From IMG/VR virus record IMGVR_UViG_3300000553_000030, positions 1-64,000 of that record: DNA of 64,000 bases. The stretch is one strand, 5' to 3'. This document shows positions 1,827-58,562 of this stretch, in pieces. The DNA is from a virus. The notes beneath the pieces are model-generated. The model was not told the origin of the DNA. It ran no database searches and saw nothing but the letters and a program-made list of their open reading frames with translations. The translations under genes were made by a program, and so were the position numbers. How positions within the stretch are numbered: position 1 is the stretch's first letter; each line of letters starts with the position of its first letter.

Positions 1827-2590
1827 ATAATGATATTATCACGATTATTCTGTGATGTCAATAATTTTTTCCAATGATGTCTATTAAAATTTGTTTTTGG
1901 ATGACAACTACAACATAATGTTATTAAATTTTTAATTGTATTATTTAGTTTGTTATAATCAATATGGTGAATTACCAGATTTCTTTTAAATTTTTGCTTA
2001 GATTTATTTTCATCTATAAAGCATACTTGACACCTGTAATTATCTCTTGTTTTTATTATATTTTTTAGTGTGTTATTAAATTCTATAGAATATTCTCCAA
2101 AACTACTTCCACCATTCCAACAAGGGTTTCTTTCTCCCATTTTACTAACTTTTATTTTTTCTCGTGCCTCCGATTTTTTAGCGGGATTTGTTTTTGGATT
2201 TTTTAATCTAACCGAATTAGCTTTATTTAAACATTTTTTACACAATTCGCTCGTATAATATATTTTAGCATTGCAAAGTTTACATTTTCCAGTTTTGCGA
2301 TTTCCAGAGGTTTTCCCATCTTTAAAATTTGGATTGTTTATCCCAACATATTTGCCAAGTTTAACTATGCTTTGTTGTTTTTTACTTGTATCTGTATGGA
2401 ACTTTTTATAAAACCCATTTCTATCCCCAATGCTTGCACACCGTCTACAAAATGTTCCGGCCGGGTGAATCCATGTATCACAATCTTTACATTTCTTTTT
2501 ATATCCATATGTTCTTCCACTAATTCTAAATCGTTTTTCCTTTGTTTTTATAATATCTGGAAAGGTTGATTTTTCTAAATCTTTTTGCAT
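1823..2590 (-). CDS. HNH homing endonuclease with zinc fingers
   Basis: Two or three CxxC zinc-binding modules (CKDC...CRRC; CKLC...CKKC) precede a C-terminal HNH domain: YRCQVC, then VIHHIDYNKLNN, NLITLC and CCSCH, which supplies the His-Asn-His metal site and the structural Cys pairs. Such proteins make a site-specific double-strand break in endonuclease-free alleles so that the gene is copied by recombination. The frame is open upstream to 2686, but the DNA from 2672 to 2526 encodes the MGRK leader in another frame, so I place the start at the ATG at 2590. The last four bases overlap the next gene's start. Confidence 0.8.
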   Translation of the reverse strand: MQKDLEKSTFPDIIKTKEKRFRISGRTYGYKKKCKDCDTWIHPAGTFCRRCASIGDRNGFYKKFHTDTSKKQQSIVKLGKYVGINNPNFKDGKTSGNRKTGKCKLCNAKIYYTSELCKKCLNKANSVRLKNPKTNPAKKSEAREKIKVSKMGERNPCWNGGSSFGEYSIEFNNTLKNIIKTRDNYRCQVCFIDENKSKQKFKRNLVIHHIDYNKLNNTIKNLITLCCSCHPKTNFNRHHWKKLLTSQNNRDNIII

Positions 2591-2672
2591 TTTTCCAATA
2601 ATATCGCATTTGCCTATCACGGCGTTCTGCAATGAGTTCTTCAATTGGCCTGTTAAGTTTTTTTCTTCCCAT
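2526..2672 (-). CDS. MGRK-type basic leader ORF (48 aa) before the HNH endonuclease
   Basis: This ORF begins MGRKKLNRPIEEL and continues with a strongly basic helix containing RYYWKN and RYYKNKGK. Three other endonuclease cassettes in the window (32439-32597, 45663-45803, 58401-58562) start with an ORF sharing MGRK, EE and the RYYxKN pattern, which shows that this frame, and not the overlapping one, is the conserved coding frame. It overlaps the endonuclease by tens of bases in the +1 frame. A late-type box CTATTTATTA lies just upstream at 2691-2700. Role unknown; a DNA- or RNA-binding peptide that regulates or couples translation of the nuclease is my inference. Confidence 0.65.
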   Translation of the reverse strand: MGRKKLNRPIEELIAERRDRQMRYYWKNAKRFRKINLSRYYKNKGKTI

Positions 2673-2690: not shown

Positions 2691-2700
2691 TAATAAATAG
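2691..2700 (-). promoter_or_regulatory. CTATTTATTA box before HNH cassette
   Basis: The minus-strand sequence reads CTATTTATTAGTATATG. The same box, in the same orientation relative to the gene, precedes most endonuclease cassettes here, and I interpret it as the core of a phage-specific (late) promoter. Confidence 0.5.
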
Positions 2701-2753
2701 TATATAGAAAATTAAAAGTATAAAAAAATGTATGAAAATTTTGTTGTAATTCT

Positions 2754-8773: not shown

Positions 8774-8953
8774 ATGAAAGAAAATAAACGACACATGGTT
8801 AATTTGACCGCAGAGGATTACAAGAAAATTCAAGATTATTGTAAACCGAGGAATCTCATTGTTAGTAAGTGGATAGCTACTGCGTGTGCACAGGCAATAA
8901 ACGAAATTATTAGCGGATCTGGTTCGGTTAATAAACAAATACTTCACGGATAA
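8774..8953 (+). CDS. Orphan ribbon-helix-helix protein (59 aa)
   Basis: After a basic N terminus comes a short strand (MVNLT), helix A (YKKIQDYCKPRN), a turn and helix B beginning SKWIATAC. This matches the RHH proteins that precede homing endonucleases at 11054, 15568, 18742 and 27976, including the YC pair and the Ser-x-Trp at the start of helix B. Here no endonuclease follows; a 77-residue unknown protein starts one base after the stop. It may be a transcription repressor or the remnant of a lost cassette. This ORF is too short for routine calling but its pattern supports it. Confidence 0.7.
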   Translation: MKENKRHMVNLTAEDYKKIQDYCKPRNLIVSKWIATACAQAINEIISGSGSVNKQILHG

Positions 8954-9991: not shown

Positions 9992-10071
9992 AATATAAAG
10001 GTTATAATAAGTAAGAAATAGTAAGATTTTTCATACTTTGAAATTTCTATTTGATATGTATTAATAAGCAT

Positions 10072-10239
10072 ATGAAACGGCAAGAAACTAAATTAAATGA
10101 TAAATGGTCAATCCAAATATCCAAAGAATTAAAAATAAAGGTTAAAGAATTCTGTAAAGCCAATGGATATTCTCTAAGTGGTTATATAGAACAAGCCATT
10201 CATAAAGCTATATCGGGTAGCGTTAAACCAAATGAATAA
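10072..10239 (+). CDS. Ribbon-helix-helix protein (55 aa) coupled to an unknown ORF
   Basis: The strand WSIQIS, helix A (KIKVKEFCKANG) and helix B (LSGYIEQAIHKAI) fit the RHH fold of Arc/CopG-type repressors. The FC pair aligns with YC in the endonuclease-linked family, but helix B has Tyr in place of Trp. It is preceded by spaced T-runs (about 10026-10051) and a TATTAATA box, and its stop overlaps the next start by eight bases (ATGAATAA), the same join as in the endonuclease cassettes. Confidence 0.7.
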   Translation: MKRQETKLNDKWSIQISKELKIKVKEFCKANGYSLSGYIEQAIHKAISGSVKPNE

Positions 10240-11008: not shown

Positions 11009-11033
11009 TGAACTTTTTTGAACTTTTTTGAAT
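11009..11033 (+). repeat. Tandem T-tract repeat before RHH-endonuclease cassette
   Basis: GAACTTTTTT occurs twice in tandem followed by a partial GAAT, with a 10-bp period, just upstream of the CTATATATTA box. In-phase T-tracts bend DNA and tandem repeats are typical operators for RHH repressors; that use is inferred. Confidence 0.6.
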
Positions 11034-11041
11034 GTTACTTA

Positions 11042-11051
11042 CTATATATTA
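11042..11051 (+). promoter_or_regulatory. CTATATATTA box of RHH-endonuclease cassette
   Basis: Variant of the CTATTTATTA box, two bases before the RHH start codon (11054). Candidate late promoter producing a message with almost no leader. Confidence 0.45.
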
Positions 11052-11053
11052 GT

Positions 11054-11203
11054 ATGAAAGAAAAATACAAAGATCGTAGAATAATTAATATAGACAAAGT
11101 GGCGTATGATATAATTAAATCATATTGCATTAAAAATGCATTAGACATGCCCAAGTGGATTGTAAAAATTGTATTACTTGCGATAAATAATAAGGATGTT
11201 TAG
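11054..11203 (+). CDS. Ribbon-helix-helix leader protein of homing cassette 1 (49 aa)
   Basis: The chain has strand RRIINID, helix A (AYDIIKSYCIKNA), then DMPKWIVKIVL as helix B, the RHH fold of small dimeric DNA-binding proteins. The endonuclease follows at once: an ATG within the last codons (11196) and another one base after the stop (11205). I infer autoregulation of the cassette through the T-tract repeat upstream. It has no role in the split glycosyltransferase that surrounds it. Confidence 0.75.
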   Translation: MKEKYKDRRIINIDKVAYDIIKSYCIKNALDMPKWIVKIVLLAINNKDV

Positions 11204-15504: not shown

Positions 15505-15548
15505 GGAATAATAAATGAACATTTTTGATTGTTTTTGTATTCATTTTA

Positions 15549-15558
15549 CTATTTATTA
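15549..15558 (+). promoter_or_regulatory. CTATTTATTA box of RHH-endonuclease cassette 2
   Basis: Ten bases before the RHH start at 15568, preceded by spaced T-runs (ATTTTTG, GTTTTTG, CATTTTA) at about 15519-15548. Confidence 0.5.
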
Positions 15559-15567: not shown

Positions 15568-15708
15568 ATGAAATCTAAACGAAACGTTGTTAATATTAAT
15601 GAAGCAGTATATAATAAACTTAAAGATTATTGTAAGAAAAATGGTCTTAAAATTGTATGGGTCATAGAAAAATTAATTACGGAATTTACGAATAAAAATG
15701 AAAATTAA
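15568..15708 (+). CDS. Ribbon-helix-helix leader protein of cassette 2 (46 aa)
   Basis: Strand RNVVNIN, helix A (VYNKLKDYCKKNG) and helix B (IVWVIEKLITEF) match the RHH family of the other cassettes. The stop overlaps the endonuclease start (15698) by 11 bases, in the +1 frame. Likely DNA-binding and probably regulatory. Confidence 0.72.
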   Translation: MKSKRNVVNINEAVYNKLKDYCKKNGLKIVWVIEKLITEFTNKNEN

Positions 15709-16594
15709 ACGAAATTGCAAAACTTGTAGTAAGGAATTTTATACCATCGAAAGCAAAATAAAAGCTGGTAAAGGATTGTATTGTTGCAAGCAATGTTATA
15801 CGGATTATAAAAATTTAAATGGTATAAAAAACTTAATAACCGATCATTGTATTATTTGTGGTAAAGGGATTCACTTAACTGAATATTTAAGAGAAATTGG
15901 AAGAAAATGTTGTTCTAGAAAATGTTCTGGGATATTACAGACACGGAGAAACACCAGAACCACATCGTGTAAATTTTGTAAAAAAGAATTAAAGACAAAG
16001 ATATCGGAAATTAAAATTTTTTGTAATTGGGAGTGTCGTAGAGATTTTCTGGATGCTTCTAAGACAACATATATATGCGAATGTTGCAATAAATCGTTTA
16101 GAGCAAACAAAAGAGAACGACGAAATAATAGAAAACATTATTTTTGTTCAAATACTTGTAAATTTACATGGCATAATGGAAAGCCACACCCCGCGATGTC
16201 TGAGTGGTTAGCGGAAAATATATCTAATGGAAATTTCATACCAAGGCATCAATCATATTACATTCAAGGATATTTATTGAATACGTCTACAGATAAAAAA
16301 GAGTGGTATTCAAGTTCATATGAAAAGGAAAGAATGTTACAATTAAATTCTCAAAATATTAAGTGGACAAAAAATCACGGAATAAAAATTCCATATGTAG
16401 ATGTAAACGGAAGAAATCATTATTATATTCCGGATATATTGGTAGGGGACAAAATTTTGGAAGAGATTAAACCAGTTAGATTAATACATTTGGATAATAA
16501 TCCAGAAAAATTTTTTGCCGCAAAAAAATATTGTTCAAAAAACAATTTAACATTTAAAATAATTACAGAAAAGGAATTGGGTATAAAATTATGA
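15698..16594 (+). CDS. Free-standing putative homing endonuclease, multi-zinc-finger type
   Basis: At least four Cys4-type fingers lie in tandem (CKTC...CCKQC; CIIC...CCSRKC; CKFC...CNWEC; CECC...CSNTC). The C-terminal nuclease has YYIPDIL and EEIKP, a PD...ExK core. Unlike the other RHH-linked nucleases it lacks the HG-finger repeats, so RHH leaders pair with more than one nuclease type. The stop overlaps the next gene's ATG (ATGA). Confidence 0.78.
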   Translation: MKIKRNCKTCSKEFYTIESKIKAGKGLYCCKQCYTDYKNLNGIKNLITDHCIICGKGIHLTEYLREIGRKCCSRKCSGILQTRRNTRTTSCKFCKKELKTKISEIKIFCNWECRRDFLDASKTTYICECCNKSFRANKRERRNNRKHYFCSNTCKFTWHNGKPHPAMSEWLAENISNGNFIPRHQSYYIQGYLLNTSTDKKEWYSSSYEKERMLQLNSQNIKWTKNHGIKIPYVDVNGRNHYYIPDILVGDKILEEIKPVRLIHLDNNPEKFFAAKKYCSKNNLTFKIITEKELGIKL

Positions 16595-18710: not shown

Positions 18711-18726
18711 ACTTTTCTACTTTTCT
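18711..18726 (+). repeat. Tandem 8-bp repeat before RHH cassette 3
   Basis: ACTTTTCT occurs twice in direct tandem, four bases upstream of the CTATTTATTA box. It takes the place of the 10-bp T-tract repeats of cassettes 1 and 4; candidate operator. Confidence 0.55.
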
Positions 18727-18729
18727 ATA

Positions 18730-18739
18730 CTATTTATTA
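18730..18739 (+). promoter_or_regulatory. CTATTTATTA box of RHH-endonuclease cassette 3
   Basis: Two bases before the RHH start codon at 18742; candidate late promoter with near-leaderless start. Confidence 0.5.
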
Positions 18740-18741
18740 AT

Positions 18742-18897
18742 ATGAAGCAACCAATCTACAAAACGTTAAAGATTAAAGAAGATACCCATAAATTGTTAAA
18801 AATTTATTGTGCAAAAAATTCTTTAATGATAAATGAGTGGGTAGATGAATTGATTAAAGAAAAAATTGCCAATCATGCCAAGAAAATTAACAGCTAA
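18742..18897 (+). CDS. Ribbon-helix-helix leader protein of cassette 3 (51 aa)
   Basis: Strand YKTLKIK, helix A (THKLLKIYCAKNS), and helix B (INEWVDELIKEKI) define an RHH protein with the conserved YC and W positions. The endonuclease start at 18875 lies within its last eight codons in the +1 frame. Confidence 0.74.
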   Translation: MKQPIYKTLKIKEDTHKLLKIYCAKNSLMINEWVDELIKEKIANHAKKINS

Positions 18898-19783
18898 AGA
18901 ATTTATTAACAAAGCACGACTTATACACGGGGATAAATATGATTATAATTCTGTTGTATATATAAATTCGATCAATAAGATTGAAATTACATGTTATACT
19001 CATGGAAAGTTCTTGCAATTTCCATATCATCATCTTAGAGGTCAGGGGTGTCCAATTTGTCATGGAAATCCCAAATATACTACACAAAGTTTTATACAAA
19101 AATCAAATAAAATACACAATAATATTTATGATTATTCAAAAACTAATTATAAAAAATCTAATATAAAGGTAATAATAAAGTGTCCAATACACGGAGAGTT
19201 CTCACAAACACCATCGCACCATTTAAACGGAGAAATTTGTGGCAAGTGTGAATCAGATTCTACTAGGTTGACATTGTTAGAATTTTATGACAGAGCAAAT
19301 AAAATACATAACAATTTTTATGATTATTCATTGGTAAAATATATAAATTGTAGAACAAAGGTCGAAATTGTTTGCCCAAAACACGGTTCATTTTTTCAAA
19401 CTCCTAACGCACATTTACACAATAAAAGAAATTGTCCAAATTGCACATATCACATTTCCAAACCCGAAATTGAATTTTTAAATCATTTGAATATAAGTTC
19501 GTCTAATAGACAAAAATATGTTAAACCATACAAAGTAGACGCTATTTGCGGAAATATAATATATGAATTTCTTGGCGATTTTTGGCACGGTAATCCGACA
19601 CGATTTAACAGAAATGATATTAATAAAATTACTAAAGAATCATTTGGAAAATTGTATGGTGATACCTTCAAAAAATTTAATGATTTGACGGCCAGCGGTT
19701 ACACTATTAAATATGTTTGGGAAACAGATTGGAACAATTTTAAACGAGGTGTAGACAAAGAACTAAAACTTTTAACTTACTAA
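18875..19783 (+). CDS. Homing endonuclease, triple HG-finger plus Vsr-like domain
   Basis: Three IHxxxYDYS / CxxHGxFxQxPxxHLxG repeats, then KPEIEFLNHL, a short DNA-binding linker, and the nuclease core IYEFLGDFWHGNP with YVWETDW near the end, i.e. the E, D, W-H residues of EDxHD nucleases. It splits a family 2 glycosyltransferase. The C-part of that gene starts five bases after its stop, but here no Shine-Dalgarno sequence is visible. Confidence 0.85.
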   Translation: MPRKLTAKEFINKARLIHGDKYDYNSVVYINSINKIEITCYTHGKFLQFPYHHLRGQGCPICHGNPKYTTQSFIQKSNKIHNNIYDYSKTNYKKSNIKVIIKCPIHGEFSQTPSHHLNGEICGKCESDSTRLTLLEFYDRANKIHNNFYDYSLVKYINCRTKVEIVCPKHGSFFQTPNAHLHNKRNCPNCTYHISKPEIEFLNHLNISSSNRQKYVKPYKVDAICGNIIYEFLGDFWHGNPTRFNRNDINKITKESFGKLYGDTFKKFNDLTASGYTIKYVWETDWNNFKRGVDKELKLLTY

Positions 19784-22982: not shown

Positions 22983-23761
22983 TGACATTCTTTCAACAAA
23001 ACCAATTGTGTAATATAGTTCATAATGGCAATGCCGTTTGGTTTTGCAAATTTGAATATATGTTAAACGATTTCGTAGAAATTTCAAAATTAAATCATGA
23101 AGTCACATTTATATGTGGTAATAGCGATTATCCATTTACAGAAGAATATGCTGGTCGAGCACCACAAAATATTACCAGAATATTTGCAACAAATTCAATG
23201 TGTTCTGATAATAAAAGAGTGTTCAGCCTACCCATAGGGATTGAGAGCACGTTTCCTACCAATCGTCCCGGGCATGGGGTTGGGTTTGGATTTGCCTCTA
23301 CTAAAACAGAACAACTAAATATCAAGGCACTTCCATGCGCCACAAAGAACCTTATCTATGCAAATTTTAATGTTAACACTAACCAAAATATTAGATTGCC
23401 GCTATTAAACAACATAAAAAACTCACATCACATTACTGTTTCAACACCAACACTGGATATAGAATCATATTTTAACAATATTAAAACACATGAGGCTGTG
23501 TTATGTCCAATAGGAAACGGTCTTGACACCGTTAGAACTTATGAGACATTATACTGTAATCGTATTCCAATCATCTATGGGTCAGACATAATTTATAATC
23601 AATTATTTAAAGATTTACCATGTGTTTATGCAAAAACCATTAATGAGATATTGGACCGCGAATTTATTTCGTCTGAAATAGAACGAGTCAAACCAAAATT
23701 CGCCAATATCAGAATGGCGTATTTGGAGTATTGGATACACAAAATATCAAGGAATATATGA
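22982..23761 (+). CDS. Putative exostosin-like glycosyltransferase (259 aa)
   Basis: The C-terminal half has CPIGNGLDTVRTYETLYCNRIPIIYG, which resembles the donor-binding part of exostosin/GT47-type and DUF-type phage glycosyltransferases (PxGxGxDTxRxxExLxxGxIPI). Its start overlaps the upstream stop (TAATG). Confidence 0.65.
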   Translation: MTFFQQNQLCNIVHNGNAVWFCKFEYMLNDFVEISKLNHEVTFICGNSDYPFTEEYAGRAPQNITRIFATNSMCSDNKRVFSLPIGIESTFPTNRPGHGVGFGFASTKTEQLNIKALPCATKNLIYANFNVNTNQNIRLPLLNNIKNSHHITVSTPTLDIESYFNNIKTHEAVLCPIGNGLDTVRTYETLYCNRIPIIYGSDIIYNQLFKDLPCVYAKTINEILDREFISSEIERVKPKFANIRMAYLEYWIHKISRNI

Positions 23762-24321
23762 ACGAAATACTAAATAAATTAAATAGTGTAGCCCCGATTG
23801 GAGAGGGGTCTACCTATAGTTGGTCCCCACATGAGGAAGATGACAAACAAAAAACGTTGGGATTTTTACGGCAATATTTGACAGATGGGAAATTTAATAC
23901 GATATTAGAAACGGGAACACACAAGGGACATTTCTGTTTTTTCTGCAAACAGGTTCTTCCAAATGTAAAAATTTTTACATTTGGAATTGATAACTTTAGT
24001 ATAAATGCGACAGAAATTTTAAATACGGAATTTGGTAAATATATTTGGTTTACACTTGGCGATAGCAAACATACATTGACCACATTTCAACCAGATGAGA
24101 AAATTGACCTAGCATGGATAGACGGGGGACATGATTACAATACGGCATATCATGACCTACTAAATTGCCACAGATTGCGAATACCAGCAATTCTTATTGA
24201 TGATTGTTCTTTAATTCGCGATGTAAATTCTGCCGTTTCGGATTTTCTAAAACTTGGATATCATATCAGTGGGAAGTTTAAATCTAGCCGGGGAATTGTT
24301 GAGTTAAAACTAAATGATTAA
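23758..24321 (+). CDS. SAM-dependent methyltransferase (187 aa)
   Basis: ILETGTHKGHFCFF is motif I of a class I methyltransferase and DLAWIDGGHDYNTAYHDL is the characteristic D-G-x-H-x-Y of the Methyltransf_24 family. The start at 23758 overlaps the upstream gene by four bases and has GGA upstream. It likely methylates a sugar in glycan assembly. Confidence 0.72.
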   Translation: MNEILNKLNSVAPIGEGSTYSWSPHEEDDKQKTLGFLRQYLTDGKFNTILETGTHKGHFCFFCKQVLPNVKIFTFGIDNFSINATEILNTEFGKYIWFTLGDSKHTLTTFQPDEKIDLAWIDGGHDYNTAYHDLLNCHRLRIPAILIDDCSLIRDVNSAVSDFLKLGYHISGKFKSSRGIVELKLND

Positions 24322-25789
24322 CACGTTAAATAATGACTTTAATAAGTTCTCAAAAGAATGGACAAATACTTTCCAGTATAACGAGTTTATTTATGACCAT
24401 TTTCTTTTGATGGTATCTAATTTTCCAATATTAGAAAACCATTTTCGTATTGTCGAGCAAACCCGCTCTGGTTTCGGAGAGAAGGCTTTCAGATATCTTT
24501 GGGCGTTGGTTGCGTCACAAATTCCCAAGAATGGAAAATTTCTTGAAATTGGGGTCTATAAGGGGTCGATAATGAGTTTGATGCAAGTCCTATCGGACAG
24601 TTTGGACAAGAACATTGAAATACATGGTCTAACTCCATTAAGTACGGCGGGTGACAAATATTCAAATTATGAGCAACAGGACTATTTTCAATGTATACAA
24701 AATTTATACAAAAATCTCAACATTCCTACTGATAAGATAAAAATTTATCGCGGCTTATCCACTGACCCGATACTCCAAGAACTAGTGTTGAGAGATGGGC
24801 CATTTAATGCAATTTATGTTGATGGTGGCCATGACTATCAGACAGTTTGTAGTGATATAAAATTTGCTGCTTCCATTTTGGCTGATGGTGGACTATTAAT
24901 TATGGATGATGCGTCGTCACTGTTGAATATCAACCATCACAATGATAGGACTGTTGGACATGAAGATGTCGCGTTAGCTATAAAAGACAAACTCGACACA
25001 AGTTTCGAGTTTAGGCATCTTTTTGCGTGCGGGCATAATAGAATATGGAGAAAAGAAACCCGAAATGTCCCGAAAATACATTTATTAATAGACTATTACA
25101 AGAATCCACGACCAGAACGGTCAGCGGAAATAGATTTTTGTTTTAATGAGAATATCAATACCAAAGAATTTGATTTTATTCATATCTTCAAGTCCTCAGA
25201 TTTGCCAGATACGGAAATACCAAAAAATGTAATTATCAATGAGGTAAATACTAGACTGACATATCAATATTATTTTGAGTATGCTAAGAACAATATTCCC
25301 AGCGATGATATTGTGGTATTAAGCAATTCCGATATATTCTTTGATGAATCAATATTAAAAACAAAAGACATTGATTTGTCTGACAAGGTGCTGGCGTTGA
25401 CAAGATTTTGCCCATACTTGGGACATTGGACAAATGATAACAACATTTTGATACCATATCATAGCCATGATAGGTCGCAAGACGTATGGGTTTGGAAAAA
25501 TCCGCTCAAATATACTGGTGATGATTTTAATTTTGGTATAGGTATAATTGGGTGTGATAACAAACTGGCATTTCAATTGCACAAACATGGCTATCAGGTT
25601 TGGAACCCAAGTTTCTCCATAATAACGTATCACAAACATGCAGAACGAAATGATAGCTCCGACCAAGGACCTGCAAATAAACGATTACCCGGAACATATA
25701 TGTTCGTAAATGCGTGTTTTTTAGAAAATATTAACAAAGCCAATTACAAAAAATATATATATGTTAATAAGATTATAGGGACAAAATGA
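24314..25789 (+). CDS. Two-domain protein: methyltransferase plus glycosyltransferase-like domain (491 aa)
   Basis: Residues 1-255 form a methyltransferase (FLEIGVYKGSIMSLM; AIYVDGGHDYQTVCSDI). Residues 260-491 contain IVVLSNSDIFFDES and FNFGIGIIGCDNKLA, a pattern of phage and eukaryotic-virus glycosyltransferase-like domains. The fusion couples sugar transfer and methylation in one chain. Start overlaps the upstream gene by eight bases. Confidence 0.68.
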   Translation: MINTLNNDFNKFSKEWTNTFQYNEFIYDHFLLMVSNFPILENHFRIVEQTRSGFGEKAFRYLWALVASQIPKNGKFLEIGVYKGSIMSLMQVLSDSLDKNIEIHGLTPLSTAGDKYSNYEQQDYFQCIQNLYKNLNIPTDKIKIYRGLSTDPILQELVLRDGPFNAIYVDGGHDYQTVCSDIKFAASILADGGLLIMDDASSLLNINHHNDRTVGHEDVALAIKDKLDTSFEFRHLFACGHNRIWRKETRNVPKIHLLIDYYKNPRPERSAEIDFCFNENINTKEFDFIHIFKSSDLPDTEIPKNVIINEVNTRLTYQYYFEYAKNNIPSDDIVVLSNSDIFFDESILKTKDIDLSDKVLALTRFCPYLGHWTNDNNILIPYHSHDRSQDVWVWKNPLKYTGDDFNFGIGIIGCDNKLAFQLHKHGYQVWNPSFSIITYHKHAERNDSSDQGPANKRLPGTYMFVNACFLENINKANYKKYIYVNKIIGTK

Positions 25790-26640
25790 ATGATATAATA
25801 AAATCTACAGACATTTATAGAGAACAATTCATAAGCGTTTTGAAACAAACCAAGAACCATTATGAATCAGTGTACACAGAATATACCACACCTTCCAATA
25901 GATACACAATAAAATATTATAAATGGATGCATCCATATCAAGGAGATTGGGAAAAGCGGGAAGCATTCACCGATGGTATTCTTGATTTTTTGAAGGCCAA
26001 CATAAAACCAAATAGCGTGGTATTAGATGTGGGCGCTCAAGCTGGTATACTTTCGGTAGCCTTTGCTCAATTTGCAAAAAAGGTCATATCATTTGAGCCG
26101 AATCCAGCCGTCTTTGAAGTAGTGGCTAAAAATTGTGAAATATACAAGAATATTGTTCCATACAATCTGGCCTGCTCTAGAAACGAAGAAATTCTTGAGT
26201 TTCACTACTCCGATAATGGGTTTTGTAATGGTGGCTTTGCAACTGAATGTGAAGCTGGGGTAGGTGTTACCGGGCACGTTATTCCAATGGATGTATACGC
26301 AACAAATTTGAATGATTTTATGAATGAACATCATCTTGAAGATATTGATAAAATATCCTTAATCAAAATTGATGCTGAAGGCCATGACAAGGAAATCATA
26401 AAGACAATATATCCAATCCTAAACAAAGTAAGACCGATAATGATGGCAGAGCTTTATTCTGGACTACACGCGGCCGAAATCGTGGATTTAATCAAAACAA
26501 TCCGTGACATCAAATATGATATGTATGATATCAACATAAACAATGAGGGGTTGGAAGATATCTCACATAGAAAACTGATAAATAGTATCAACGATGTTAA
26601 AGTCGGGTCATTATGCAATTTATTATGTCTTCCGAGGTAA
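25786..26640 (+). CDS. FkbM-family methyltransferase (284 aa)
   Basis: VVLDVGAQAGILSVAFAQFAKKVISFEPNP is the FkbM SAM-binding motif, followed later by LIKIDAEGHDKEII, the family's second signature. These enzymes methylate hydroxyls of sugars or natural products. Overlaps the upstream stop by four bases (ATGA). Confidence 0.83.
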   Translation: MNDIIKSTDIYREQFISVLKQTKNHYESVYTEYTTPSNRYTIKYYKWMHPYQGDWEKREAFTDGILDFLKANIKPNSVVLDVGAQAGILSVAFAQFAKKVISFEPNPAVFEVVAKNCEIYKNIVPYNLACSRNEEILEFHYSDNGFCNGGFATECEAGVGVTGHVIPMDVYATNLNDFMNEHHLEDIDKISLIKIDAEGHDKEIIKTIYPILNKVRPIMMAELYSGLHAAEIVDLIKTIRDIKYDMYDININNEGLEDISHRKLINSINDVKVGSLCNLLCLPR

Positions 26641-26641
26641 T

Positions 26642-27820
26642 ATGCTTATAAGTTTTATCATACCAACAAAAAACAATCTACAATATTTAAAAAATGCGTA
26701 TAATAGTATTAGAAAATATTACACTCAACATGAAATTGTAATACTGGATGATGCATCCTCCGATGGTACAGGGGAATGGTTAAAGTGTTTAAATGATAAA
26801 AATCTTACAATACACTTAAATACAAACGCGCCTGTAGGACACACGATATTATACAATATTGGCGTTAAGATGTGTAGGTATAATGTATTCAGCATTTTTC
26901 ACGCGGATATGATATGTGGCCCAAATTATATTGAAAATTTAACAAAACATCTTCGAGATAAAACGGTAGTATCTGCCACTAGAATTGAGCCCCCTTTACA
27001 TCCTACAGGAAAAGAAAAAATTACAAAAAATTTTGGCATGAATCATGACGACATCAATTTTAAAGAATTTAAAGATTTTTGTCTAATAACACAAAAAGAA
27101 AACGAAAATGTTACTACCAAAGGAATTTTTGCTCCATGGCTGATGTACAAAAATGATTTTTTAATCATTGGTGGACATGATGAAGTATTTGCGCCCTTCC
27201 CATTTGAAGACAGTGATATATTTCAACGGTTTATATTGAATGGTTATAATATCATCCAAAGCCGGGATTCTCTGGTATATCATTTAACATGTCGCGGGCA
27301 TAGATGGACAGAACAAATCCAAAAAGATGATGATTATTATAAACAATGTGTTGATAGAAATTCTAAAAATTTTTTGAGAAAATGGGGAAGCTGGATTAAA
27401 AATGACGAATATTCTTACCCAATTATAAAAAACAAATATGACATCGGTCTTATAATCAGAAATTGTAATGAACAATTATTGGCAGCATTGGAGCCAATGT
27501 TTTCAACCATATATACCGACTGCCAGTTCAATGATTACATAAAATTTAACCAACCAAACACAAAATTCAATTTGACAAAACGCATACAATCCATTAATAC
27601 AGATAAAACAAATGACATTATTATAGAGTTTGATGCCAAACAATTGAATCAAGAGAATTTCTCATTTTTAACCACACAACTAACGGACGTTATCATTGAG
27701 TCCGGTGAAGTTGGTACATTAGAGTACGATATCTTCAAATTCACTATAAATCAGTTAAATCCTCTACAAAATAGACTAATTACAACGACAGACCCACACT
27801 ATACATCACAGCTATTATGA
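26642..27820 (+). CDS. Glycosyltransferase family 2 (392 aa)
   Basis: LISFIIPTKNNLQYL, EIVILDDASSDGTGEW and SIFHADMICGPNY mark the nucleotide-sugar-binding GT-A domain, with FEDSDIFQRFILNG as the acceptor-site region and a C-terminal extension of about 130 residues of unknown fold. I use the ATG at 26642, immediately after the upstream stop. Last gene of the glycan operon. Confidence 0.8.
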   Translation: MLISFIIPTKNNLQYLKNAYNSIRKYYTQHEIVILDDASSDGTGEWLKCLNDKNLTIHLNTNAPVGHTILYNIGVKMCRYNVFSIFHADMICGPNYIENLTKHLRDKTVVSATRIEPPLHPTGKEKITKNFGMNHDDINFKEFKDFCLITQKENENVTTKGIFAPWLMYKNDFLIIGGHDEVFAPFPFEDSDIFQRFILNGYNIIQSRDSLVYHLTCRGHRWTEQIQKDDDYYKQCVDRNSKNFLRKWGSWIKNDEYSYPIIKNKYDIGLIIRNCNEQLLAALEPMFSTIYTDCQFNDYIKFNQPNTKFNLTKRIQSINTDKTNDIIIEFDAKQLNQENFSFLTTQLTDVIIESGEVGTLEYDIFKFTINQLNPLQNRLITTTDPHYTSQLL

Positions 27821-27920
27821 TTATTCGTATAACAGTAACAGTTACGCTAATCCTCTCTCGTTAGGCAAAAACCCCCGCACCTATTAAAATCATCATGCTA
27901 CTATTTCATTTAAATTAATA

Positions 27921-27950
27921 TTATCTTTTTTTATCTTTTTTTATCTTTTC
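27921..27950 (+). repeat. Tandem 10-bp T-tract repeat before RHH cassette 4
   Basis: TTATCTTTTT occurs three times in direct tandem (last copy ends C). It lies in the 155-bp gap between the glycan operon and the RHH gene, about 13 bp upstream of the CTATTTATTA box. The rest of the gap (27821-27920) shows no gene and only a weak GTAACAGTTAC inverted repeat. Confidence 0.65.
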
Positions 27951-27963
27951 AGTGTTCAAGATA

Positions 27964-27973
27964 CTATTTATTA
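27964..27973 (+). promoter_or_regulatory. CTATTTATTA box of RHH-endonuclease cassette 4
   Basis: Two bases before the RHH start codon at 27976 and downstream of the tandem repeat; candidate late promoter. Confidence 0.5.
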
Positions 27974-27975
27974 GT

Positions 27976-28149
27976 ATGAAAAACATAAAAATATCAGACG
28001 GAACACATACAATGTTAAAAGAATATTGCAAACAAAAATCTCTTAAAATAAGCAATTGGGTAGATGGTGTATTAAATTACATTGTTACAAACAACACCAA
28101 AAATGAAAAGGAGAAGGAATGCCCAAATATACAACCAAAAAATTTATAA
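27976..28149 (+). CDS. Ribbon-helix-helix leader protein of cassette 4 (57 aa)
   Basis: Strand KNIKIS, helix A (THTMLKEYCKQKS) and helix B (ISNWVDGVLNYIV) give the clearest RHH pattern of the set. The endonuclease start at 28119 lies 31 bases inside its 3' end, behind GGAGAAGGA encoded by the RHH codons. Confidence 0.76.
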   Translation: MKNIKISDGTHTMLKEYCKQKSLKISNWVDGVLNYIVTNNTKNEKEKECPNIQPKNL

Positions 28150-29246
28150 AAAAATCAAAATTAATTCATCAACTGAGATATGATTATTCTCATGTAAACT
28201 ATGTTAATAGTCAATTGATGGTAAAAATAATTTGTCCAAAACACGGTAGTTTTTTACAAACACCGAACAACCACTTGGCGGGCCATGGATGCGCCAAATG
28301 TGGGTGGAAAATTCCTAGAAAACTTAAAACTCTCGGAATAGATGAATTTATACGAAAGTCAAAATTAATTCATAAAAACAAATATTTGTATGATAAATTT
28401 ATTTATATCAACGCGCACACTAAAGGAATACTTCAATGCCGACTTCATGGGAAATTTTTGCAATCCCCAAATAACCATTTGAGCGGGAAGGGCTGTTACC
28501 GTTGTAGAAAATCGCGGCCAACATTTACAACGGAAGATTTTATAAAAAAAGCAAGCCAGTGTCACAAAAATAAATATGATTACACAAAAACAAAATACAT
28601 TAATTACAAACACAAAGTAATTATTAGTTGTCCAATTCATGGGGAGTTTTTACAAACACCATCCGGACATTTAAATGGAAGAGGATGTTTGAAATGTTTT
28701 TGTTCTCGAAGAACATTTACCATAGACGAATTTAAAGAAAGGGCAAAAATTGTTCATAACTCAAAATATGACTATTCCAAAATATTTTACATAAACACAA
28801 CAACACATATTAGTATAATATGCCCAATTCATGGAATTTTCAGTCAAACGCCAAACAAACATCTGTCTGGTAGGGGGTGTAAGAAATGTGGTAGAGAGAA
28901 CATGAGAACAGGCTCGGTATCAAAAGCAGAAACCGCGTTTCTTGATTATATGAAAATTGAGAAACACAACAGAAATAAATATATAAACGGTTATTATGTT
29001 GATGGTATAAAAAACAACACAATTTACGAGTTCCTTGGAGATTATTGGCACGGCAACCCCAACAAATTTAATCACAAAAAATTAAATAAATCTGTAAAAA
29101 TAACATTTGGAAGTTTGTATGAAAAAACATTCAAAAGACTTAATGAATTAAAAAAAGGCAATTTTACCGTAAAATACATATGGGAATCAGATTGGTATAG
29201 GTTTGTTAAAAATCCCGATTCAAAACTAAAAATATTGGAATTATAA
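28119..29246 (+). CDS. Homing endonuclease, four HG-finger repeats plus Vsr-like domain
   Basis: Four tandem modules each contain IHxxKYDYSxxxY and CPxHGxFxQTPxxHLxGxGCxKC. A linker with SKAETAFLDYM leads to IYEFLGDYWHGNP and YIWESDW, the EDxHD core. With 375 residues it is the longest of this type here. It lies after the glycan operon and before a membrane protein, so no broken host gene is evident. Its stop overlaps the next ATG by one base. Confidence 0.85.
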   Translation: MPKYTTKKFIKKSKLIHQLRYDYSHVNYVNSQLMVKIICPKHGSFLQTPNNHLAGHGCAKCGWKIPRKLKTLGIDEFIRKSKLIHKNKYLYDKFIYINAHTKGILQCRLHGKFLQSPNNHLSGKGCYRCRKSRPTFTTEDFIKKASQCHKNKYDYTKTKYINYKHKVIISCPIHGEFLQTPSGHLNGRGCLKCFCSRRTFTIDEFKERAKIVHNSKYDYSKIFYINTTTHISIICPIHGIFSQTPNKHLSGRGCKKCGRENMRTGSVSKAETAFLDYMKIEKHNRNKYINGYYVDGIKNNTIYEFLGDYWHGNPNKFNHKKLNKSVKITFGSLYEKTFKRLNELKKGNFTVKYIWESDWYRFVKNPDSKLKILEL

Positions 29247-29590
29247 TGAATGTCCTCATAACAGTCATAACTACAAATGTTATATGTCTTATACTTTTTT
29301 TCAATACCGACGTTTTGGTTGAATATGGGCGTATATTTAAATTAATAAAGAAATGGCTCAAAATCGACCAATTTGACGAAGCCTATAAGAATGACTTTGA
29401 ATTGACTTACCACCAATATCTACGAATTAACTACAATTGCTTCTTCGTCAGATTAATAACATGTCCGATTTGTTTGGCGTTTTGGATATCCTTAATTGGA
29501 TGTATAATTTGTGGTATTATAACAAGTCTACCGATTGTCTACCTATTATCTATATTTTTGTACTATTTATTTGTAAAGATACAAAGATGA
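29246..29590 (+). CDS. Small membrane protein (114 aa), DUF1360-like
   Basis: An N-terminal hydrophobic segment (VLITVITTNVICLILFF) and two C-terminal ones flank a polar region. RLITCPICLAFWISLIGC is the motif of a phage/bacterial membrane family with a CPxC pair. Likely three membrane spans. Its stop overlaps the next start. Confidence 0.6.
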   Translation: MNVLITVITTNVICLILFFNTDVLVEYGRIFKLIKKWLKIDQFDEAYKNDFELTYHQYLRINYNCFFVRLITCPICLAFWISLIGCIICGIITSLPIVYLLSIFLYYLFVKIQR

Positions 29591-29868
29591 TTATAAATAA
29601 TTTCTCCGAATTTTCAAATTTAGTAATGCGATGCAATCTACAAGGAATATCGCCATTTTCGTCGTTTATATCTCTTGTTAATGATTATAAGGCACATTGT
29701 AATTGTATTAACCCAACAGAAAAGAGTATAAAACGAGATAGATGTGTTGATGCTTATGTTAGACTAGTAAACACTACACTATCTAGTTATATGACAATGA
29801 TTAAGAGTGTATTTAAATCTGGACCAATAACATTTTCAAATAATGGAAAAGTTATTAAAACTTACTAG
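29587..29868 (+). CDS. Hypothetical protein (93 aa)
   Basis: Start chosen at 29587 because ATGA overlaps the upstream stop. Mostly helical. It converges with the minus-strand gene ending at 29855; the two coding regions overlap by 14 bases with no room for a terminator. Confidence 0.5.
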   Translation: MIINNFSEFSNLVMRCNLQGISPFSSFISLVNDYKAHCNCINPTEKSIKRDRCVDAYVRLVNTTLSSYMTMIKSVFKSGPITFSNNGKVIKTY

Positions 29869-30328
29869 AATGTAACAATTTCTGTGCGGTTTTCTTTACC
29901 AAATCATTAATATCTTTTGCCATAGTAACACCGTATCTATGACACACAATATCAACATTGCCTTTACGATAAAACCCATCTGGACAACATACCACCATCT
30001 TATCTAAAAATAAACCCATTTCTAAAAGTGTTATAGGACTTTTGGTGGCAGGGTCAATATAACACGAAATAACTGTAGCTGCTTCTTGACCAGCCAATTC
30101 CCATTCCACCTGTTCTCTAAATTGTGGATTAGACATTTCTTGAGTCCAACTAGAATTCCAATCGTTTCTTCTTGGATTTAAAATTACAAGATTTTTAACA
30201 TCTTTCATTTTATTAGAAATTTTATCTTGCCAATCGACAGCGTTACCCATCTCTATACTACCACACAAAAATATGGCCTTTTCATTTTTGTCCAACACGA
30301 AATTTTCTGGTGCTTTCAATAGTCTCAT
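29855..30328 (-). CDS. Nucleoside 2-deoxyribosyltransferase-like protein (157 aa)
   Basis: AIFLCGSIEMGNAVDWQ, ILNPRRNDW and a later VEWELAG with ITLLEMGLF match the nucleoside deoxyribosyltransferase-like family found in many phages. The start at 30328 has GGAT upstream. A role in nucleotide metabolism or base modification is likely; substrate unknown. Confidence 0.7.
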   Translation of the reverse strand: MRLLKAPENFVLDKNEKAIFLCGSIEMGNAVDWQDKISNKMKDVKNLVILNPRRNDWNSSWTQEMSNPQFREQVEWELAGQEAATVISCYIDPATKSPITLLEMGLFLDKMVVCCPDGFYRKGNVDIVCHRYGVTMAKDINDLVKKTAQKLLHSSKF

Positions 30329-30329
30329 A

Positions 30330-30800
30330 TTAATAATCCTTATCCACATTGTTATAAATGTCTATTATTCTGATAAATCGTCCATCATATCCCATACAGG
30401 TCGCAATTTGTTCTAATCTTCCAACAAACATAAACGTTAATTGTATTTGTTTATCATTAAACTTATATGATTTTAACAAGTTTACCAAAAATTTCCATTT
30501 TTTATCATGATTTTTTACATTTTGATCATCAGTTAATTTCGAGCTAAAATTAAACACAATATCATCAATTGAATCGTATATTTTATCTCTATGTTCATCT
30601 TCTAAATCCATATAACCAAATATAAAATCATTTAAATTCTCATGAAAGTCTTTAATAATAGCATCTGCCAATTGTTCTTTAAAAACCACACATGTACATT
30701 TCTCATCTGTACATTTATTTTCTTCTTTATTATTTAAATTTACTGTGTGATCATAAATAAACCCATTATCAGAATTTTTATTATCGGTTTCGTTGTTCAT
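30330..30800 (-). CDS. Hypothetical acidic protein (156 aa)
   Basis: Begins with an Asn/Asp/Glu-rich segment and has a CTDEKCTCVVF cysteine cluster at about residues 35-45; the rest is helical and acidic. It overlaps the upstream gene's stop by four bases. Not recognised. Confidence 0.5.
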   Translation of the reverse strand: MNNETDNKNSDNGFIYDHTVNLNNKEENKCTDEKCTCVVFKEQLADAIIKDFHENLNDFIFGYMDLEDEHRDKIYDSIDDIVFNFSSKLTDDQNVKNHDKKWKFLVNLLKSYKFNDKQIQLTFMFVGRLEQIATCMGYDGRFIRIIDIYNNVDKDY

Positions 30801-31039
30801 ATTATCCTATTATTTTGTTGAGATTGGTGTTCTAGTAATACATCCGAAAATGGCCGTTGTTCTTTAAACGATTTATCCATTAACTTTTGGTGTAATATCA
30901 ATTCATCTATAGTTTTATCTTTATTTTGTTTAACAATATTTCTTAACATTCTTTTTCGTAAGTTCATAGGAAAATTAGAATCTGTCAAAGAAAGCAATTC
31001 CTGATATTGTTTGGATGATGTTGACAGTTTAATTTTCAT
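30797..31039 (-). CDS. Small hypothetical protein (80 aa)
   Basis: A basic, helical 80-residue protein ending in a Gln/Asn-rich tail. Overlaps genes on both sides by four bases, so it belongs to a translationally coupled operon with the dNMP kinase. Confidence 0.5.
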   Translation of the reverse strand: MKIKLSTSSKQYQELLSLTDSNFPMNLRKRMLRNIVKQNKDKTIDELILHQKLMDKSFKEQRPFSDVLLEHQSQQNNRII

Positions 31040-31644
31040 AGTTTATCCATTGCTGATTTAACGATATCACGAAGTTTTTCATCTTTCAACATTGCCATAT
31101 AACTGTCACCATTATATGTTTGCCACTCAACTGCTACATCCGCATTTCTCTTTACAATTGGGTCATTAAATGTTTCATGTTCGTTTGCTGGTTCTGTGAA
31201 AATCCTGGTGATTCCTTTTAAGTCATATTTAGATACATGAATTAATTTACCACCCATAACAGTTTTAATCCATTCCACTTCATCACAAGGATAAATTGAA
31301 TAACGGATATCAGTAATAATATTAACATTTGCATCACTCTTATCCAAATCCTCTTTAAGCTTGGAAGTCCAATATTTACCTTCCGATTGTTTCCTTTTAA
31401 CATCACCATACCATACTAAAAATTCCCTAAATATGTTCTTTTCTTCGGTTTTCTCTGTCCAAATACTAAGTCCTAAATTTTTTTGAACAAACTCCTCACA
31501 ATCTTTTTTTAATTGATATGCTAACGCAAATGTTTTAGTAGATATCCCCCTCTCTTTGTAAATATCACACATTATATCCGCAAACGAATTTTTTCCACTG
31601 CGAGCAACCCCGCTAATGCCTATATATTTTTTAGTTGTTATCAT
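31036..31644 (-). CDS. Deoxynucleoside monophosphate kinase-like P-loop protein
   Basis: GISGVARSGKNSFAD is a P-loop (GxxxxGKN-S) typical of phage dNMP kinases (T4 gp1/T5 type), with IITDIRYSIYPCDEVEW as the D-x-R motif further on. It would phosphorylate dNMPs for phage DNA synthesis. The start at 31644 lies inside the 3' end of the GIY-YIG endonuclease gene, whose codons supply GGAAAG as ribosome binding site; an ATG at 31671 would lack one. Confidence 0.75.
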   Translation of the reverse strand: MITTKKYIGISGVARSGKNSFADIMCDIYKERGISTKTFALAYQLKKDCEEFVQKNLGLSIWTEKTEEKNIFREFLVWYGDVKRKQSEGKYWTSKLKEDLDKSDANVNIITDIRYSIYPCDEVEWIKTVMGGKLIHVSKYDLKGITRIFTEPANEHETFNDPIVKRNADVAVEWQTYNGDSYMAMLKDEKLRDIVKSAMDKL

Positions 31645-32617
31645 ATATTCTTTCCAATTTCCAACCAACACTATTTTTGTTATATCGAATCATACCGATT
31701 GTTATTTTAGTGTTATGTTTTTTGTTATAATCATCTATAAATTCTCTAAGTATTTTCCCACCTTTAATATTAATACTTTTCCCATCATATGTCAACTTAT
31801 ATAAAACTCTGTGTTGGTCGGCGATTTTTTCAATTACTTCGGGTGGATGAGATTTACCGTAAAATGGATTATTTTCTCCGTTAAAATTCGCATGATTATC
31901 TTTTAAACTCTTTCTCCATATATCAAAATCCATCCAATCCTTGTTATACATGTAATGAGTTTTACCTTTATTTTTATCACTGGTTTTTCTAGTATTACTA
32001 ATATTTTGTTTCCATTCTTCAGTCTTAACAATTCTAGACAACCGTTTCTTTCGTTCTTTTGTTAGTGTTATTCCTCTAACATACTTGTCTATCATTAATG
32101 CGTGGTTAATTCTAAGTTTTTTAAGTATTTCTTCTTTATTAGGATTATTGGTTAAATTATCCCCGCCTTCTCCACCGTGGCCGATATTACATAAGTTTGG
32201 ATTTATTAGTCTAATATCAGTTATTTCTTTGATTTCTCGTTTATATGCAGATGTTTCGTCTACATTTTCTAATATTTTTTTATATATGACGTTTCCATTT
32301 CTATTTAAAATTTGTTTAATTTTATTAAACAAGTGTCTATTATTATTGGGTATTTTATTCTTTTTTACCAGTTGTTCATGTTTATACATTCTCCTACCAA
32401 ACCCCTTTCCTACATAAAAAACAACGCCATTCATAGAATCAATTAGATGATAAACATAATATTTTTTTCTTTCTATAATAATAGTCGAGTCGTTCTTTAT
32501 TAAGTTTGATTTTGTTTTTTTCGTAATATCTTCTTTGCCTTTCCCTGTGTTGTTTAGCAAGTTCTTCTTTGGTTCTGTTAAGTTTTTTTCTTCCCATAAT
32601 GTTTCCATATCATTCAT
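31631..32617 (-). CDS. GIY-YIG homing endonuclease
   Basis: YYVYHLIDSMNGVVFYVGKGFGRRMYKHE is a GIY-YIG nuclease domain (Y-x-Y...Y-V-G, then the conserved Arg), followed by ExNxE-like VDETSAYKREIKEI. The C-terminal half carries repeats of NUMOD-like DNA-binding sequence (ENNPFYGKSHPPEVIEK). The ORF is open from 32617 with AGGAATAAA before its ATG, but 32439-32597 also encode an MGRK leader in another frame, and the true nuclease start may be internal. It sits just before the dNMP kinase gene. Confidence 0.82.
   Translation of the reverse strand: MNDMETLWEEKNLTEPKKNLLNNTGKGKEDITKKTKSNLIKNDSTIIIERKKYYVYHLIDSMNGVVFYVGKGFGRRMYKHEQLVKKNKIPNNNRHLFNKIKQILNRNGNVIYKKILENVDETSAYKREIKEITDIRLINPNLCNIGHGGEGGDNLTNNPNKEEILKKLRINHALMIDKYVRGITLTKERKKRLSRIVKTEEWKQNISNTRKTSDKNKGKTHYMYNKDWMDFDIWRKSLKDNHANFNGENNPFYGKSHPPEVIEKIADQHRVLYKLTYDGKSINIKGGKILREFIDDYNKKHNTKITIGMIRYNKNSVGWKLERIYDNN
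32439..32597 (-). CDS. MGRK-type basic leader ORF (52 aa) before the GIY-YIG endonuclease
   Basis: Starts MGRKKLNRTKEELAKQ, then RRYYEKNKIKLNKERL and YYYRKKK. The first 23 bases are the same as in the leader at 2526-2672 apart from the last base, and the protein pattern is shared with those at 45663 and 58401, where the alternative frame is not open. GGAAACATT before the ATG could serve as a ribosome binding site. Confidence 0.65.
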   Translation of the reverse strand: MGRKKLNRTKEELAKQHRERQRRYYEKNKIKLNKERLDYYYRKKKILCLSSN

Positions 32618-45017: not shown

Positions 45018-45682
45018 TTATTTTTTGTGTCGGTGTTCGTATATAATATCTACCAACTTAAAAAACTCCGATTCTTGAAAATTAGATTTCAATGAATTTA
45101 TATCCTTATGAATCCATTGCACGTTTTCTTCTGTATATCCAATGGATGAATCTATTCTATCTAATGAAGCTGTTGTGGGAGTGCCTAGATATTTATTACC
45201 AAAAAATATTTCCCATCCACTAATAACACATCTTTTATTCTGTTTTAAAAACAGTTTCCATAAAAATTCCTGCGACACATCATATACAATACCTCTGCGC
45301 TTGGCATTATTTCTCAACTGTCCAAAATATGAACCGGGGATGTCACCACATTTTGTTCTCCGTTTGCACCCACAAGATACGGCATCATTTTGTAACAATG
45401 GTGTTTTGTAAAATTTCGTGTGTTTCCACATTCACATCTACATATCCAACATGTTCCTCTATTTTTGTTTTCTGTTCTACCCAATACAATCAATTTTCCG
45501 AATTTTTTACCAATAAATTTTTTAGTTTCTAAGTCAACAATTTCCCGCTTAGTTCTAGTTTTAATATTGTATAACCTAAACAACTTTGATATTTTCCCTA
45601 GATGTGTATTATTTTCAGATGCAATTTCCTTTAATGTCTTCGCCATTGAAAAATATTGGTTTTCAAGATACTCTTTTGTCAT
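45018..45682 (-). pseudogene. Frameshifted HNH-type homing endonuclease
   Basis: The N-terminal part (ATG at 45682, MTKEYLENQYF) has a small helix-turn-helix-like region and GKKFGKLIVLG with CRCECGNTRNF, the start of a zinc-binding HNH family common in phages. After about residue 95 the frame shifts; the rest (KFYKTPLLQNDAVSCGCKRR, then KRCVISG, LDRIDSSIGYTEENVQWIH) continues in the 45018-45431 frame. A single indel near 45420 would join them. GGAAAGG precedes the start. Preceded by an MGRK leader. Confidence 0.7.
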
Positions 45683-45803
45683 AATACCTTTCCATTCGTT
45701 TTTTTCTAATAATGTCTCCGTTTTTTGTATAATATCGTTTTTGTCGTTTTTTTCTAGCATATATTTGTTCCTCTTTAGTTGTGTATAACAGTTTTCTTCC
45801 CAT
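45663..45803 (-). CDS. MGRK-type basic leader ORF (46 aa) before the broken HNH endonuclease
   Basis: MGRKLLYTTKEEQIYARKK followed by RYYTKNGDIIRKKRMERYY. AAAGGAT lies upstream of the ATG at 45803. Its last codons overlap the endonuclease start at 45682 in the +1 frame. Confidence 0.68.
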   Translation of the reverse strand: MGRKLLYTTKEEQIYARKKRQKRYYTKNGDIIRKKRMERYYDKRVS

Positions 45804-45876
45804 AGTATTATTGTATCCTTTGTTATATAAGTAGTTACATAAAAGTAGAAACATTAAATTTAAATTAATATATTAT

Positions 45877-58400: not shown

Positions 58401-58562
58401 ATGGGAAGAAAACAAATATATAAAACGTATGAACAATTGCTTGCGGTTAATAAGCTTCGCGCAAATGAATATTATGCAAAAAATAAAGACGTTGTAAATA
58501 AGAAGCGACGAGAACGATATAAACAATTAAAGAATCAGTCGAGGTTGATTATCAATGAGTAG
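58401..58562 (+). CDS. MGRK-type basic leader ORF (53 aa) of decayed cassette
   Basis: MGRKQIYKTYEQLLAVNK, then YYAKNKDVVNKKRRERYKQ, a strongly basic helix. Its stop TAG overlaps the endonuclease start at 58555 by eight bases (ATGAGTAG), the same kind of join as in RHH cassettes. Confidence 0.68.
   Translation: MGRKQIYKTYEQLLAVNKLRANEYYAKNKDVVNKKRRERYKQLKNQSRLIINE

Follow-up and report, generated by a model that had tools for sequence, protein, structure and literature searches.

Tandem T-tract repeats as candidate operators of small first genes in viral homing-endonuclease cassettes

Described systems and the cassettes of the window

Antitoxins of the CcdA and HicB types are often ribbon-helix-helix (RHH) proteins. 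The closest published statement to the arrangement considered here, as far as the excerpted text of that paper goes, is the pairing in moraphages of CcdA/HicB-like antitoxin genes with a PacI-like homing endonuclease, for which regulation was proposed in 2025 (PMC12619734). An antitoxin-type regulator paired with a homing endonuclease is common to both, but operator repeats, the MGRK family of small proteins and covariation go unmentioned in that excerpt. In T4, the available portion of the source describes I-TevI as repressing itself, its promoter being covered by an operator that limits expression; the other two intron nucleases are thought to be self-repressing, and several free-standing ones are without promoters of their own (PMC2988022). 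The likeness is a homing endonuclease promoter under an operator, but in T4 the nuclease is itself the repressor, a role for which the candidate in these cassettes is a small gene of its own in first place. The first-pass annotation of this DNA held that RHH repressors bind tandem short repeats, and omega of pSM19035 does so: in the text available, this RHH protein binds tandem WATCACW heptads that overlap its own promoters (PMC9499535). The cassettes described here share with omega a small RHH protein (profile E 0.0018) and short tandem direct repeats over its own promoter, but their units are 8, 10 or 11 bp long, T-tract based, cassette-specific and present in two to three copies, are candidate operators only, and the second gene is a homing endonuclease. 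ParG of TP228, another RHH protein, is the top fold match of the RHH model, although no ParF-type partner gene was noted in the cassettes. Finally, in the mobC–nic operon of plasmid RA3 an RHH first gene autoregulates an operon whose second gene cuts DNA, from an operator placed by the partial text between −35 and −10 (PMC4175270); that operator is one imperfect palindrome, and the second gene is a relaxase, not a homing endonuclease. Judged by title, none of the open-licence papers that bring homing endonucleases, ribbon-helix-helix proteins, phages and promoters together deals with such an arrangement.

The window is the whole stretch of 64,000 nucleotides analysed here, taken from a 65.8 kb IMG/VR virus record with a G+C content of about 32%. 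The closest relative of its DNA polymerase is that of Microcystis phage Mel-JY01 (38% identity), followed, among named isolates, by those of T4-like cyanophages. This polymerase lies in two overlapping minus-strand ORFs, 5192-6964 and 4267-5214 (phrog_262 positions 91-578 and 567-844), either a split gene or a frameshift. Window positions 20000-40000 had no DNA-level match in 50,697 phage records, tblastn for relatives in cultured phages, against the same number of records, returned zero matches for the MGRK proteins of outside loci L037 and L342, the RHH protein of L321 and that at 18742, and a search for relatives of the 15698 nuclease came up empty. The RHH genes and the genes behind them are as follows.

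27976..28149, +: RHH protein, 57 aa
28119..29246, +: homing-endonuclease-like protein (phrog_681/559)
11054..11203, +: RHH protein, 49 aa
11196..12101, +: homing-endonuclease-like protein (phrog_559)
18742..18897, +: RHH protein of 51 aa; the Pfam Omega_Repress match (E 2.9e-6) falls short of the family cut-off
18884..19783, +: homing-endonuclease-like protein (phrog_681, DUF723)
15568..15708, +: RHH protein of 46 aa; the Pfam ParG match exceeds the family cut-off
15698..16594, +: endonuclease whose N-terminal part matches a TnsA-like nuclease domain
10072..10239, +: RHH protein of 55 aa, not followed directly by a recognised nuclease gene
8774..8953, +: sixth RHH-like ORF, 59 aa

By family matches, the second genes at 11196, 15698, 18884 and 28119 encode homing-family nucleases, a pattern from which the 10072 cassette departs. 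The small proteins fit the RHH pattern, in which an N-terminal strand precedes two helices in 45-60 residues; RHH proteins are dimers and contact DNA through the paired strand. The model of the 27976 protein (mean pLDDT 78) has helices at 8-20 and 25-45 and, as a single chain, shows no strand; Foldseek placed ParG first (probability 0.93, E 0.45), with more RHH matches and every E above 0.4. Compared with solved chains, the RHH sequence profile matched 2kel (3.7e-8), which we take to be SvtR, omega 2bnw (0.0018) and ParG 1p94 (0.0081), and among 17 members Pfam gave ParG for five and Omega_Repress for four.

The repeats and the promoter box

Five T-tract sites next to a promoter box had been proposed as RHH operators. 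They and the boxes are listed here with one further site.

27921..27949, +: TTATCTTTTT in 2.9 tandem copies, candidate operator for the RHH gene 27976-28149
27962..27978, +: promoter box TACTATTTATTAGTATG, which ends at the RHH start codon; −35-like TTTATC 16 bp upstream
11010..11032, +: GAACTTTTTT in 2.3 tandem copies, candidate operator for the RHH gene 11054-11203
11040..11056, +: promoter box, one mismatch; −35-like TTGAAC 16 bp upstream
18711..18727, +: ACTTTTCT in 2.1 tandem copies, candidate operator for the RHH gene 18742-18897
18728..18744, +: promoter box; −35-like TTTACA 16 bp upstream
15519..15548, +: spaced T-runs, repetition not significant, including −35-like TTGATT and the box-proximal T-run
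15547..15558, +: promoter box TACTATTTATTA; −35-like TTGATT 16 bp upstream
10026..10051, +: spaced T-runs, repetition not significant
2691..2702, −: promoter box of an MGRK/HNH cassette, with T-runs upstream, tandem repeat not significant; −35-like TTTATA
45825..45858, −: 14-bp T-rich tandem repeat (p = 0.055) upstream of the 45803 MGRK gene

At a minimum score of 30, Tandem Repeats Finder returned 47 rows across the 64 kb; the 27921 repeat scored highest (58), followed among these sites by 11008 (50) and 18711 (34), and there was no row at 15519-15548 or 10026-10051. When the 50 bases upstream of each gene were compared with 300 dinucleotide shuffles (the stretch of the 58401 gene being shifted by one base in this and the following test), p was 0.003 for the 11054 cassette, 0.003 for 27976 and 0.007 for 18742, and was not significant for 15568 (0.24) or 10072 (0.056). 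With wider lags the values were 0.003, 0.003, 0.030, 0.57 and 0.19, respectively. Three of the five named sites therefore count as repeats, being those at which the shuffle tests are significant, and in the same proportion the named cassettes have omega/ParG-type tandem short repeats over their own promoter; the sites at 15519 and 10026 turned out to be plain T-runs. The limits of the three shift slightly. The 27921 repeat, described as three units to 27950, comprises 2.9 copies to 27949, and a C at 27950 closes the third TTATCTTTTT copy; the GAACTTTTTT repeat is real and begins at 11010, one base later than claimed, with two full copies (11010-11029) and then GAA up to 11032; ACTTTTCT has two full copies at 18711-18726. 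The proposal that each cassette has its own unit is borne out by the sequences, with a (C/A)TTTT-like core common to all. Lags are 8, 10 and 11, with additional classes near 7, 14 and 15.

The box borne by the cassettes, TACTATTTATTARTATG, recurs across many viral contigs, often 5′ of homing-endonuclease genes. In the window, the form TACTATTTATTA occurs at 11040, 15547, 18728 and 27962 (+) and at 2702 (−) with at most one mismatch in 12 core bases, and weaker forms lie at 14238 and 44047 (−). The repeats thus adjoin the box as claimed, with only a weak box in the 10072 cassette. A matrix trained on 28 outside loci only ranked the five window boxes first (27.0 to 24.0), against a maximum of 17.2 in 20 simulated windows; three of the 28 training loci later moved from the endonuclease-only to the MGRK class, which leaves the matrix unaffected. 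An exact scan of viral contigs found at least 119 stretches with the box, and two scans pooled gave at least 124 matches, which form 59 clusters among the matches listed; the ORFs beginning at the box, among the same listed matches, include many nucleases and others that are structural genes. One box, in L008:4641-5246, stands exactly at the start codon of what is presumably an IS607-like transposase, and other mobile elements may use this promoter too.

In a sigma70-type promoter, −35-like and −10-like hexamers would stand 16-18 bp apart. In each of the window's seven box promoters, a hexamer resembling TTGACA lies at a distance of exactly 16 bp from where the box starts (TTGATG and TTGACT for the weak boxes at 14238 and 44047), with one or two mismatches in six and at least three at 27962, the weak one; by eye, it is not clear in the outside loci. 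This spacing would place the repeats over the putative −35 element and over the DNA next to it, upstream or in the spacer. Were TACTAT the −10 element, transcription would start about two bases ahead of the start codon. A T-run near the box, with TTT between −16 and −11 relative to it (background 0.12), precedes 15 of 19 endonuclease-only genes, as against 6 of 19 genes of other kinds (Fisher p 0.008). These classes were sorted by eye on translations with family counts as a check; 0 of 18 families matched by the 19 'other' proteins bears a nuclease name, and for the 19 endonuclease-only proteins the counts are per family rather than per protein, L008, L025 and L032 not being individually confirmed. 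The T-run is best seen as a part of the promoter that needs no small gene, and the T-richness of these regions is partly owed to the promoter, because the run also precedes nuclease genes without a small partner. At 2702 (−), 27962 and 11040 the box forms an inverted repeat, TACTA-5-TAGTA, with 8-bp arms ATATACTA/TAGTATAT at 2702, and could on these grounds itself be an operator. A T4 late promoter was considered and set aside, as the box is not TATAAATA; 'late promoter' with CTATTTATTA was absent from the open-licence papers searched. There may also be some resemblance to T4 middle promoters of the MotA type, in which a MotA box lies about 12 bp upstream of the −10 element and which go with a MotA gene.

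Two interrupted genes lie among these promoters. In one, a nuclease-like ORF at about 14277-15188, with its own weak box at 14238, divides a dUTPase into 13710-14219 (phrog_135 positions 146-226) and 15145-15504 (228-295), and a minus-strand DnaB-like helicase is split into 44079-44897 and 42212-43327, at profile position 366/367, by nuclease-like ORF 43311-44069 with the weak box at 44047. Group I introns around the split genes were rejected, Rfam at gathering thresholds giving no match in the window. The nuclease-like proteins 15698-16594 and 14277-15188 carry the PHROG label 'head closure' (phrog_218), which looks wrong because the former has a TnsA-like nuclease domain according to Pfam.

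Small first genes and covariation of the repeat unit

In many relatives of the 28119 nuclease the RHH gene is replaced by one for a protein of about 48 residues (46-56) beginning MGRK, and a profile search found four members in the window.

58401..58562, +: MGRK small protein, 53 aa, then a truncated endonuclease ORF 58555-58857
45663..45803, −: MGRK small protein, 46 aa, then HNH ORF 45314-45760
32439..32597, −: MGRK small protein, 52 aa, out of frame within nuclease-like ORF 31631-32617
2526..2672, −: MGRK small protein, 48 aa, out of frame within HNH ORF 1823-2686

With MGRK genes in these places, the reading of the repeats as belonging to RHH proteins only was dropped. The families matched by most MGRK downstream genes are endonucleases (22/24 cassettes scanned, outside and window together; the two downstream ORFs omitted from the scan are those of L007 and L081). 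None of 49 MGRK members matches Pfam, 12 match phrog_17714 (function unknown) and one matches phrog_19880, named a transcriptional regulator. The MGRK model, of high confidence (mean pLDDT 89), has two helices and an N-terminal arm; no solved chain and no PDB fold was matched, and comparison of the MGRK and RHH profiles gave no alignment. In five cases, 2526-2672 (−), 32439-32597 (−), L064, L092 and L093, a nuclease ORF that starts at the box contains the MGRK gene in another frame, within its N-terminal part, and the nuclease frame stays open across it in all five (chance per case 0.03-0.34 by synonymous shuffling).

A tandem repeat at p<0.05, scored by one procedure for all box promoters, was found at 8 of the 14 whose first gene is of the RHH or MGRK kind, at 2 of 21 endonuclease-only promoters and at 3 of 19 others (Fisher p = 0.0037 for the first two classes). 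In its first form, before sorting, the endonuclease-only count was 0/26, and the 2/21 follows cleaning: outside endonuclease-only loci fell from 22 to 19 on removal of L064, L092 and L093, which have an overlapping MGRK gene inside, and 2702 and 32618 of the window were likewise reclassified as MGRK. The proposed tie between repeats and RHH genes is accordingly kept as an association with a small leading gene and loses its RHH specificity, since many relatives have MGRK instead. In wider sets that were not box-selected, repeats at p<0.05 are less frequent, occurring with 18 of 57 MGRK and 5 of 16 RHH members. Marine MGRK genes of the L364-L412 type lack repeats and, by eye, seemingly lie within operons.

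The first-pass annotation had suggested covariation of repeat unit and protein as a check, and among MGRK cassettes this was found. In 25 of them, protein identity correlates with repeat similarity at r 0.74, against 0.21 for far-upstream DNA. For the 24 with a downstream ORF, the partial correlation of repeat with small protein, nuclease fixed, is 0.75 (p 0.0005), and that of repeat with nuclease, small protein fixed, is −0.02 (p 0.54); leaving out the doubtful L007 and L081, the Mantel r is 0.71 (p 0.0005, n = 23). Repeat-block identity is 0.59 below 40% protein identity, 0.76 at 50-65% and 0.89 above 65% (n = 23), and with shuffled partners it is 0.58-0.64, the chance level for T-rich blocks. 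Individual cases run the same way: L298 and L336/L337 have repeats and small protein (74-87%) in common with unrelated nucleases, L037 and L357/L358 have like repeats and unrelated nucleases, and L298 and L350 have nearly one nuclease, while small protein (52%) and unit differ. Contig 3300032324_000717 carries both CTAC and CTAAC units. The repeat unit tracks the MGRK small protein, not the nuclease and not the phage. Identity in the spacer from repeat to start is 0.46 (14 pairs) as against 0.81 in the repeats (47 pairs), and a diverged spacer beside kept repeats argues for selection.

For RHH the covariation is only suggestive. In seven cassettes r is 0.59 (Mantel p 0.019), but far-upstream DNA correlates too (0.80), so that this correlation alone is not evidence. 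Among RHH-like genes beside a nuclease, one of five has a repeat at p<0.05, and in the marine RHH group two of six do (L316, 0.007; L321, 0.025), with 0.052 at L318 and no significant repeat at L317, L328 or L333. By eye, three of the six marine proteins are N-terminally extended and go with CATAC or CTTAC units, and three are unextended and go with CTACC, one with CTTAC alongside. At L316 and L321 an RHH gene stands alone, without a nuclease, between genes of the other strand that were named by eye as tail-sheath-like and other structural genes of T4-like marine phages; both loci keep their own 11-bp T-tract repeat. At L329 an RHH gene is paired with an ORF that, by eye, looks like a LAGLIDADG nuclease. 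The best cross-family match is between RHH L316 and MGRK L358, whose repeats are near-identical (local score 18 over 23 bases).

The operator reading and its alternatives

We propose, at a probability of about 0.6, that the tandem T-tract repeats of each cassette serve as specific operators for the small protein encoded there, which would thereby autoregulate the nuclease. The case is strongest for MGRK and plausible for RHH. The repeats, their position, the link to small first genes and the MGRK covariation with small protein rather than nuclease are observed; binding, repression rather than activation, and orthogonality are inferred. In-phase T-tracts may in addition bend the DNA, as the first-pass annotation suggested. 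Lying over the −35 and upstream region of the promoter that each homing-endonuclease cassette carries, the repeats would most likely be bound cooperatively by the first-encoded small protein, RHH or, in sister cassettes, MGRK; the bound protein would block RNA polymerase and so limit its own expression and that of the nuclease. A unit that changes with the small protein would allow several cassettes in one phage without mutual silencing. Counting against this, two of the five named RHH cassettes, 39 of 57 MGRK and 11 of 16 RHH members have no repeat, neither fold nor family puts MGRK among DNA-binding proteins, and the repeats adjoin the small gene, so that linkage alone would couple unit and gene.

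An explanation that we consider rather unlikely, though the best placed of the alternatives, is that the T-tracts are promoter elements for RNA polymerase or a phage activator, a T-run by the −35 with extra copies one helical turn upstream as an UP element, and that the small proteins do not bind them. A reading as promoter only was favoured first, for the fixed T-run at −15, and was weakened by the partial correlation with small protein and not nuclease. It would account for the T-run of endonuclease-only promoters and for the hexamer at a fixed 16 bp, and it draws on near-identical units in RHH and MGRK cassettes: that two families unrelated by profile have such repeats would be odd if each recognised them separately, and speaks more strongly than anything else for a common, third factor acting on both. 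Spacer AT-tracts do activate −10 elements in Escherichia coli (PMC7229825), but in the accessible part of that paper the tract is at −17 to −23, closer to the start site than the repeats here, and we do not regard it as the same element. A promoter element would not be expected to follow the small protein rather than the phage, with two units in one contig; moreover, conservation of the unit extends to its non-T bases, promoters that lack a small gene seldom have tandem copies (2/21), and the L328 repeat abuts the start codon.

That the small protein binds the repeats and activates, rather than represses, seems improbable to us. A position at or just upstream of −35 fits an activator equally, and the RHH protein AmrZ, in the excerpt available, both activates and represses (PMC3325190); set against this, omega and MobC, both RHH proteins encoded by first genes, bind and regulate the promoters from which they are expressed, MobC by repression, in the partial texts of PMC9499535 and PMC4175270, and the 18711 copies extend into the spacer, which would favour occlusion. 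Chance or slippage repeats in AT-rich non-coding DNA, without function, are very improbable, even with the low G+C content, the 47 repeat rows and two of five listed sites not significant, as cassettes with 50-65% protein identity still have their repeats in common but not the spacer, and as the repeats are concentrated in particular gene classes.

More tentatively, and at somewhat less than even odds, the operators proposed here may form with their cognate small regulators an exchangeable module that reassorts with unrelated nucleases, in which at least two unrelated families serve, RHH and MGRK, the latter sometimes overprinted on the nuclease, and in which pairs within one phage would be blind to each other. 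Neither the operator repeats nor an MGRK family was found described in the open-licence papers searched. The parts are known, namely omega/ParG-type operators, I-TevI autorepression and the antitoxin–endonuclease pairing of 2025, and the arrangement is new. If true, such a swappable module would explain how free-standing homing endonucleases spare the phage that carries them and how many of them coexist, and it would be a source of many small, naturally orthogonal regulator–operator pairs.
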